A stretch of 64,000 nt of DNA, taken from Fusobacterium perfoetens. GTDB lineage: Bacteria; Fusobacteriota; Fusobacteriia; Fusobacteriales; Fusobacteriaceae. The translations under genes were made by a program, and so were the position numbers. Shown in pieces: positions 57,523-59,131 of this stretch. The notes under the pieces are model-generated. The model saw nothing but the letters and a program-made list of their open reading frames with translations. It was not told the origin of the DNA and searched no databases. The DNA lies in assembly GCF_021531595.1 (NCBI RefSeq), contig NZ_JADYUD010000010.1, positions 1 to 64,000 of the forward strand. Direction: 5' to 3'. Positions within the stretch are counted from its first letter, which is position 1, and the number at the start of each line of letters is the position of its first letter.

Positions 57523-57551
57523 TTGTATTTTTTTTCTCTCAATGATATCAT
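57523..57551 (+). promoter_or_regulatory. Promoter of the Trp-leader and NSS transporter
   Basis: TTGTAT (57523-57528), 17 bp, TATCAT (57546-57551); about 45 bp before the leader peptide start. Confidence 0.55.
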
Positions 57552-57596
57552 AATGAATATAAATTTTTATGACTAAAAATTGGAGGTGTGTTATTT

Positions 57597-57665
57597 ATGA
57601 AAAAGTTTTATCAATTTAATAAAAATATAAATAATACATCTTTATCACATTGGTGGAGTTCTTAA
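57597..57665 (+). CDS. Leader peptide with tandem tryptophan codons
   Basis: 22-codon ORF that translates to MKKFYQFNKNINNTSLSHWW plus two Ser. GGAGGTG lies eight bases upstream of its ATG, a site nearly identical to that of the transporter gene itself (TTGGAGGTGTGTT in both). The two TGG codons at 57651-57656 stand three codons from the stop. Tandem Trp codons are rare in such a short ORF and are the hallmark of trp attenuator leaders, where ribosomes stall if charged tRNA-Trp is scarce. Confidence 0.8.
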   Translation: MKKFYQFNKNINNTSLSHWWSS

Positions 57666-57668
57666 GCA

Positions 57669-57800
57669 GAGTTTGTAATCTTTTAAAGATACAGACTCAT
57701 TTTATGTTTAAGAAATAAAAATAAGATGAATGTGTATTTAGAGGAGTAGAAATTTATAAAAATAGTTTGTAATCCACAGATACATCTGTGGATTTTTTTA
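57669..57800 (+). promoter_or_regulatory. Transcription attenuator (Trp-responsive) of the NSS transporter gene
   Basis: Right after the leader stop, arm A (57669-57682, GAGTTTGTAATCTT) pairs with arm B (57686-57698, AAGATACAGACTC). A second copy of arm A, AGTTTGTAATC at 57764-57774, can pair with B instead. This second copy shares its last three bases with the terminator stem ATCCACAGA (57772-57780) / TCTGTGGAT (57785-57793), followed by seven T. A ribosome stalled on the Trp codons would cover the start of arm A, so B pairs with A' and the terminator base is opened; with ample Trp, A:B forms and the terminator stops transcription. Confidence 0.75.
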
Positions 57801-57817
57801 TTTGGAGGTGTGTTGTT

Positions 57818-59131
57818 TTGAAAGAGAAAAGAGAAAAGTTCAGTAACAGAATAGGGTTTATTTTATCATGTGTAGGAGCAGCAATAGGACTGGGAAATAT
57901 TTGGCTTTTTTCTTGGAAACTTGGAACATTTGGTGGAGGAGCTTTTCTTATTCCTTATTTTATATTTGTAATATTATTTTCATTTGTAGGATTGATTTCA
58001 GAAATATCATTTGGAAGAATGATGAAAAAAGGAGTTCTTGGTGTAGGGGAACTTATGAAAAAGAAAAATATACCTTTTAGTTCAGTTATATCTTGGGTGC
58101 CAGTTATTTCTGTTTCAGGAATATTTACTTTTTATGTAATTGTTTTTGGATGGGTAATAAAATATTTTATAATGTATCTTACAACAGATATGAATAGCAT
58201 TAATTATGGTGAATATTTTAATAATTTTGCAGGGAGTAGCAGTTCTATAGTATGGCATATAACAGCAGCAATTTTAAGTATAGTTGTAATATCTTTTGGT
58301 GTTGTAAAAGGAATAGAGAAACTTAATAAAATTATTATGCCTCTTATGTTTATGATATTTATAGGTTTAGTATTTAAATCACTTTCTCTTCCAGGAGCAG
58401 CAGAAGGAGTAAAATACCTTTTAGTTCCAAGATGGGAGTTGCTTGCAAAACCTGTTACATGGATTATGGCCTTAGGGCAGGCATTTTTTACTGTAGGGTT
58501 AAGTGGATCAGCTCTTCTTGTATATGGAAGTTATTTAGATAAAGATATTGATATTCCAGCTAGTGTTTTTCATACATGTATATTAGATACTTGCGCAGCC
58601 TTACTTGCTGGGTTTATAATAATACCAGCAGCATTTGCTTTTGGATTTAAACCAGATGCAGGACCAAGTCTTTTATTTATAACACTGCCTGCTGTTTTTT
58701 CACAAATGACAGGAGGAAAGATTTTAGGAACGGTATTTTTCTTAAGTATAATATTTGCAGCTGTCTCTTCTGCTGTAAATCAATTAGAAGTTCCTGTAGA
58801 AGCTATAATGGAAAAATTTAATCTTTCAAGGAAGAAGGCAAGCTTTATTGTAGGAAGCGTTTTATTATTAATAGGTATACCTCTTGATATTAATATGAAT
58901 CTTTTTGGGAAATTTGCAGATATAATGTCTGTATATATGATTCCCTTAGGAGCAGTATTTGTACTTGGATTTTATTTCTTTTTTGTAGGAAAAGAAAAAG
59001 TTATAAATGAAATTAATGAAGGATCTAAATATAAAATAGGAGCTTTTGTATTAAATGTAGGAAAATATATTTTCACTCCTGGCGTAATTATAATACTTAT
59101 ATTAGGATTTTGTTATGGAAGTATAGGATAG
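57818..59131 (+). CDS. Sodium-dependent transporter of the NSS family, probably for tryptophan
   Basis: 437-residue, 11-12-helix LeuT-fold symporter. The N terminus reads RIGFILSCVGAAIGLGNIW; the unwound part of helix 1 is GLGNIWLFSW instead of the usual GNIWRFP, so the arginine of the outer gate is absent, as in some other short bacterial members. Start TTG at 57818 with GGAGGTG eight bases upstream; the GTG at 57788 lies in the terminator. The Trp leader upstream suggests tryptophan as substrate, and related bacterial NSS proteins transport tryptophan (TnaT) or tyrosine (Tyt1 of Fusobacterium). The assignment to tryptophan is inference from regulation. Confidence 0.85.
   Translation: MKEKREKFSNRIGFILSCVGAAIGLGNIWLFSWKLGTFGGGAFLIPYFIFVILFSFVGLISEISFGRMMKKGVLGVGELMKKKNIPFSSVISWVPVISVSGIFTFYVIVFGWVIKYFIMYLTTDMNSINYGEYFNNFAGSSSSIVWHITAAILSIVVISFGVVKGIEKLNKIIMPLMFMIFIGLVFKSLSLPGAAEGVKYLLVPRWELLAKPVTWIMALGQAFFTVGLSGSALLVYGSYLDKDIDIPASVFHTCILDTCAALLAGFIIIPAAFAFGFKPDAGPSLLFITLPAVFSQMTGGKILGTVFFLSIIFAAVSSAVNQLEVPVEAIMEKFNLSRKKASFIVGSVLLLIGIPLDINMNLFGKFADIMSVYMIPLGAVFVLGFYFFFVGKEKVINEINEGSKYKIGAFVLNVGKYIFTPGVIIILILGFCYGSIG

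Follow-up and report, generated by a model that had tools for sequence, protein, structure and literature searches.

A tryptophan-codon leader upstream of a Fusobacterium perfoetens transporter gene, very probably one copy of a recodable attenuator family

Attenuation read by the ribosome is classical knowledge: in the trp, his and thr operons of enteric bacteria, a leader with runs of regulatory codons is combined with alternative hairpins and an intrinsic terminator. Each of these operons has its own leader family. T-boxes (RF00230) achieve a comparable output from a single scaffold, in which an exchangeable specifier codon and a terminator/antiterminator switch serve all kinds of amino-acid genes, with uncharged tRNA bound directly. 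Two further RNA families are relevant here. The trpB motif (RF04312; Narunsky et al. 2024) is an orphan riboswitch candidate with more than 900 members in Firmicutes and Fusobacteria (PMC11109978). Its associated genes vary, amino-acid transporters being the commonest, its antiterminator sits in the right shoulder of P1, and its authors did not exclude an attenuator (PMC11109978). The Enterococcus RNA sRNA_2410 (RF02863) has been described in E. faecium as a transcript of 195 nt (PMC5593968). Among the papers searched, a set without the candidate earlier study of Lopatovskaya et al. 2010, no description of leaders such as those reported below was found for Fusobacteria.

The window, i.e., the whole stretch of 64,000 nucleotides of F. 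perfoetens DNA analysed here, contains a leader that is very probably a ribosome-mediated transcription attenuator that senses charged tRNA-Trp and a member of a family of homologous attenuators that can be recoded. Its parts are as follows.

57582-57588, + strand: Shine-Dalgarno of the leader ORF (GGAGGTG), at the same position in all orthologous leaders
57597-57665, + strand: leader peptide ORF, MKKFYQFNKNINNTSLSHWWSS, 22 codons (57597-57662) and a TAA stop (57663-57665)
57651-57656, + strand: tandem Trp codons TGG TGG, the specifier run
57669-57683, + strand: arm A (GAGTTTGTAATCTTT), beginning 3-4 nt past the stop codon
57687-57705, + strand: arm B (AGATACAGACTC, 57687-57698) with its extension CATTTTAT, partner of A or C
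57721-57741, + strand: arm C (ATAAGATGAATGTGTATTTAG; core TGTATTT, 57733-57739), partner of B, or of D as antiterminator
57774-57784, + strand: arm D (CCACAGATACA), 5' side and loop of the terminator
57771-57800, + strand: intrinsic terminator, a 10-bp hairpin (57771-57794) and T run
57818-59131, + strand: NSS-family sodium:amino-acid symporter (NCBIfam NF037979), TTG start, predicted tryptophan importer

The leader ORF, the hairpin A:B behind its stop and the terminator had been described in a first-pass annotation of the same sequence, and all of them are present and conserved; A:B also covaries, and the terminator measures 10 bp instead of 9. A terminator search found one terminator in the window leader against 0.0 in shuffled sequences, and the leader region as a whole folds better than its shuffles (z -6.2). 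The annotated promoter is weak: a strict sigma-70 scan gave no match there, though a promoter-like stretch occurs at the equivalent place in relatives. Near the start of the ORF, the Shine-Dalgarno region (57584-57598) can pair with 57629-57644 inside the same ORF (AGGTGTGTTATTTAT with ATAAATAATACATCT), and a similar pairing is possible in the g4 leaders, a group that includes Cetobacterium somerae; it perhaps limits repeated initiation. At 57804-57820, the ribosome site of the transporter gene repeats that of the leader (GGAGGTGTGTT), and the gene begins with TTG.

In an alignment of the leaders, arm A is AGTTTGT directly after the stop, arm B is GATACAAACT.ATTTT, arm C is TGTATCTG about 45 nt later, and the terminator loop carries GATAYA. 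Across 47 aligned scaffolds, changes on both sides affected 6 of 8 A:B pairs (92.7% of cells paired), 10 of 12 B:C pairs and 5 of 6 C:D pairs. The B:C duplex had z values of -3.6 to -4.7 in 12 orthologous leaders. Arm C also pairs more strongly with its cognate D than with D arms from other leaders (none of 5000 shuffles was as good; P about 0.02 with one leader per group), although C:D taken alone was not significant in most single orthologous leaders. Arm D is marked by its loop motif, GATAYA or GGTATA, which is conserved in orthologs despite a quite different stem.

These pairings suggest the following order of events. When tryptophan is low, the leading ribosome would stall on the WW codons and leave arm A, which lies just past the stop, free to pair with B; this would release C, and C could then pair with D, so that the terminator fails and the transporter gene is transcribed. 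When tryptophan suffices, a ribosome at the stop codon would mask A, B would pair with C, and D, left unpaired by C, would form the terminator. Amino-acid specificity would reside only in the codons just before the leader stop, and the same scaffold could therefore serve other amino acids.

The first-pass annotation had likewise proposed ribosome-mediated attenuation with Trp codons as the signal in front of a transporter gene, a reading that stands, but it had built the switch differently: a stalled ribosome would mask A, B would pair with a second copy of A at 57764, and the base of the terminator would be disturbed. The 11-base exact repeat of arm A does exist at this position, and an equally long repeat occurred in only 18 of 2000 shuffles. 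However, it is absent from the leaders of relatives. Pairing of B with this repeat is also 8.5 kcal/mol worse than the free fold (-12.4 versus -20.9) and does not disrupt the 10-bp terminator. A ribosome on the Trp codons, moreover, ends short of A. We therefore regard a switch based on the repeat as very unlikely; the competing arm, which the annotation overlooked, is C, and C:D is the antiterminator.

The four-arm switch is compatible with the space that a ribosome takes up, which extends up to 12 nt past the stop (PMC4833913). If the 3' edge is assumed to lie 15 nt from the first base of the P-site codon, then in 12 leaders a ribosome whose A site holds the first Trp codon ends 4-10 nt upstream of arm A, whereas 5-8 nt of the arm are masked once the ribosome stands at the stop codon. 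Since A is uncovered in the first position and covered in the second, A:B is assigned to the starvation state. As in classical attenuators, different arms are thus free at the regulatory codons and at the stop, the hairpins, including the intrinsic terminator, are mutually exclusive by covariation, terminator search and folding, and the leader with its tandem codons is presumably translated, judging from its conserved Shine-Dalgarno, start and stop.

With the ribosome placed on the first Trp codon, the free RNA as far as D folded into A:B plus C:D in 11 of 12 leaders, and with the ribosome at the stop the full transcript formed B:C and the terminator. The exception in the starved state was the window itself. 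Its C:D duplex has 7 bp, one of them G-U, and B:C has a slight advantage at equilibrium even under starvation (-26.3 versus -24.7 kcal/mol), so the switch must rely here on co-transcriptional order, with ribosome and polymerase presumably coupled. Compared with its relatives, the window copy exemplifies the switch less well.

Orthologs of the NSS gene, 60-73% identical, occur in four genera of the order. Both in the window's own genus (g1) and in g4, it stands behind a leader whose peptide has WW or WWW one to three residues before the stop. These leader peptides diverge outside the Trp run, and the run itself is kept in all 13 orthologs that bear the scaffold, from two genera. Among the orthologs, none had the hairpins but lacked the Trp codons, the pattern that the first-pass annotation had named as fatal to its reading. 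In two g4 records (L044, L062) the leader and arms A-C are lost together, and the terminator is kept with a loop that lacks the D motif. In g13, the NSS gene has no leader and follows another gene. In the g10 ortholog (L051) a WW leader is kept, the peptide is longer and the downstream RNA is different, possibly an independent attenuator. A search of relatives with the 261-bp region at the DNA level returned mostly short AT-rich matches and was discarded.

Tryptophan had been assigned to the transporter in the first-pass annotation on the strength of the leader, and further evidence supports this. The closest solved structure to the NSS protein is 4us3 (MhsT; E 8e-72). In addition, no trpB above the cutoff was found in the window genome or in any genome with the leader-NSS pair, while G004 and G006, two congeners without the pair, do have it. 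We infer from these sequence patterns that tryptophan is the substrate and that its import would respond to tryptophan supply; unlike enteric trp, the Trp version here would then drive an importer in genomes without trpB. In G004 and G006, a WCWC leader stands before another NSS gene, with cysK next in G006, where this was checked. The PRD regulator gene behind the transporter, once proposed to share its control, follows it only in the window; this arrangement is not conserved, and co-control was dropped.

The scaffold is not specific for tryptophan, which the first-pass annotation had overlooked. R1, a covariance model built on the Trp leaders, also recovered this RNA before other amino-acid genes. 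We then used a model (R2) that starts at the leader stop and contains no leader codons, except in three long-tailed leaders, where the stop falls within arm A; as it begins at the stop codon, codon content was not selected. R2 matched in 64 of 96 Fusobacteriales genomes. Shine-Dalgarno, start codon and position of the stop were the sole criteria for choosing a leader, whatever its composition, and one was found for 144 of the 146 matches listed, with gene identities taken from NCBIfam.

The codon runs corresponded to the genes behind them: TTTT before thrS, YYYYY before tyrS, WW before trpS, NNNN before asnA, HHHHH before his genes, HHHH before hisZ, MMMM before metN, two or three Pro before putP, TTTIIIM before asd, WYFYYYF or WYWY before DAHP synthase (aromatic) operons, and WW or WWW before NSS1. 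Codons and gene agreed in 71 of 75 matches with a defined expectation. Counted per genus-by-gene unit, agreement was 28 of 31, compared with a mean of 8.06 and a maximum of 17 in 20,000 shuffles. The model had not been trained on thrS, asnA, metN, metY, asd or the TrpY-like permease, so they served as blind tests; the codons matched the gene in five of these, and for metY no leader satisfied the criteria. In the window genome, five copies are supported: the window leader with WW before the NSS gene, and leaders SYWWC before trpS (C5), IHHHHR before an amino-acid ABC transporter (C2), INNNNGN before asnA (C3) and NPMVP before putP (C5).

This exchange of codons bears on the ligand-binding reading proposed for RF04312, in which a free metabolite would set the B:C hairpin and translation would not be needed. 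RF04312 has been published as a strong riboswitch candidate (PMC11109978), and its architecture, an antiterminator in the right shoulder of P1 with a terminator behind it, is found here: P1 corresponds to our B:C hairpin and P2 to our terminator (alignment of L111-L113; the same helices in alignment A3). However, the leader codon run varies with the gene while the RNA core stays constant for Trp, His, Tyr, Thr, Asn, Pro and Met, and one aptamer could hardly read all seven amino acids, which makes a metabolite riboswitch highly improbable. An arrest peptide of the TnaC type, in which free tryptophan would stall the ribosome at the leader stop and induce or repress without tRNA sensing, has equally little to recommend it: the leader C-terminus is Trp-rich and some leaders carry Pro before the stop (WWWP), after which termination is slow, but the residue in this place varies (S, F, P or C in Trp leaders; R, H, Y and others elsewhere), the fixed arrest residues of such leaders, among them a Pro next to the stop, were not found, and the same geometry with His, Thr, Asn or Tyr runs argues for codon reading.

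The ribosome-read scaffold is related to RF04312, though below its gathering cutoff of 59 bits, which was reached in 0 of 96 genomes (best 52.4 bits); Rfam searches of the window and related loci listed no RF04312 match for the window leader. The Rfam model omits the leader ORF and arm A, both of which are part of the scaffold here. Because the same scaffold stands with swapped codons before many amino-acid genes, it probably explains the trpB motif. Several weak RF04312 matches in Fusobacteriales had no leaders and were discarded.

RF02863 likewise shows A, B, C and D segments, before a TrpX-type ABC transporter. It is annotated as an sRNA, unlike the scaffold here, and the length of the 195-nt transcript is as expected of a terminated leader. 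In E. gallinarum and S. suis, the A-D arms lie upstream of TrpX-type ABC operons, after leaders that read YFSYFR and YFYGYFR, respectively, up to the stop; the E. gallinarum copy is Rfam sRNA_2410 (89.5 bits), and the support from Firmicutes consists of these two plasmid records. RF04312 or R2 also gave matches in L. eligens, Monoglobus and E. faecalis (there in a leuS leader with a T-box-like stretch), which on inspection were put down to chance.

Compared with the enteric attenuators, the scaffold shares the regulatory-codon runs, alternative hairpins and intrinsic terminator. Its longer chain of alternating arms resembles the enteric his leader, and the asd leader resembles the enteric Thr/Ile leader. 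In contrast to the separate leader families of enteric operons, one homologous scaffold with swapped codons serves synthetases, biosynthesis and transporters here; we infer this homology from the shared A-D sequences, with convergence as the alternative. The Trp operon leader RF00513 had no match in the window at the gathering threshold, and none at related loci with E up to 1. The window does contain a lysine riboswitch (RF00168, 16316-16501, 103.5 bits). In its exchangeable codons and range of genes, the scaffold resembles the T-box, whereas its reader would be the translating ribosome. T-box matches occurred in 20 of 96 genomes, 2 of them above the cutoff, and none in the window or the window genome.

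Together, we consider it likely that, across Fusobacteriota, codon changes have adapted one homologous scaffold to nine or more amino acids (W, Y, F, H, T, M, N, P, I; perhaps C and L), that this scaffold extends to Lactobacillales, and that the trpB motif and sRNA_2410 belong to one ribosome-read family, a functional counterpart of the T-box whose codons give the substrates. This offers a testable mechanism for an orphan riboswitch candidate and an orphan Enterococcus sRNA, and it indicates that codon-read attenuation can act as a device that is portable, recodable and regulon-wide, here in an order with rare T-boxes. Read as a substrate code, the leaders would assign Trp to the NSS transporter, His to the ABC system left ambiguous by NCBIfam, and Pro to PutP, in agreement with its known substrate. 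A YYYYY leader before AGCS-family carriers (L152, L169, L179, L250, L257) predicts that these are tyrosine transporters instead of alanine/glycine transporters.

Several single leaders deserve mention. A YYYYYY leader before a TrpX-family binding-protein gene (L264) is one of a few odd matches, and the substrate of this protein may therefore be tyrosine. In g4, the leader MKNIAIKEIKFNNVLLLLADLL before another NSS paralog (L163, L164; RF04312 match weak, 34.8 bits) suggests a version read by leucine codons. Two asd genes (L229, L244) are preceded by an attenuator with a TITTTIIIM leader and then a putative tandem glycine riboswitch. In a C. somerae relative (G044, L246), an MFWFMYYF leader stands before a glycerol-dehydrogenase-like gene. 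Finally, in one trpS leader (L109, genome G019) a TGG codon has become TGA and the peptide ends early, a natural mutant of the switch.
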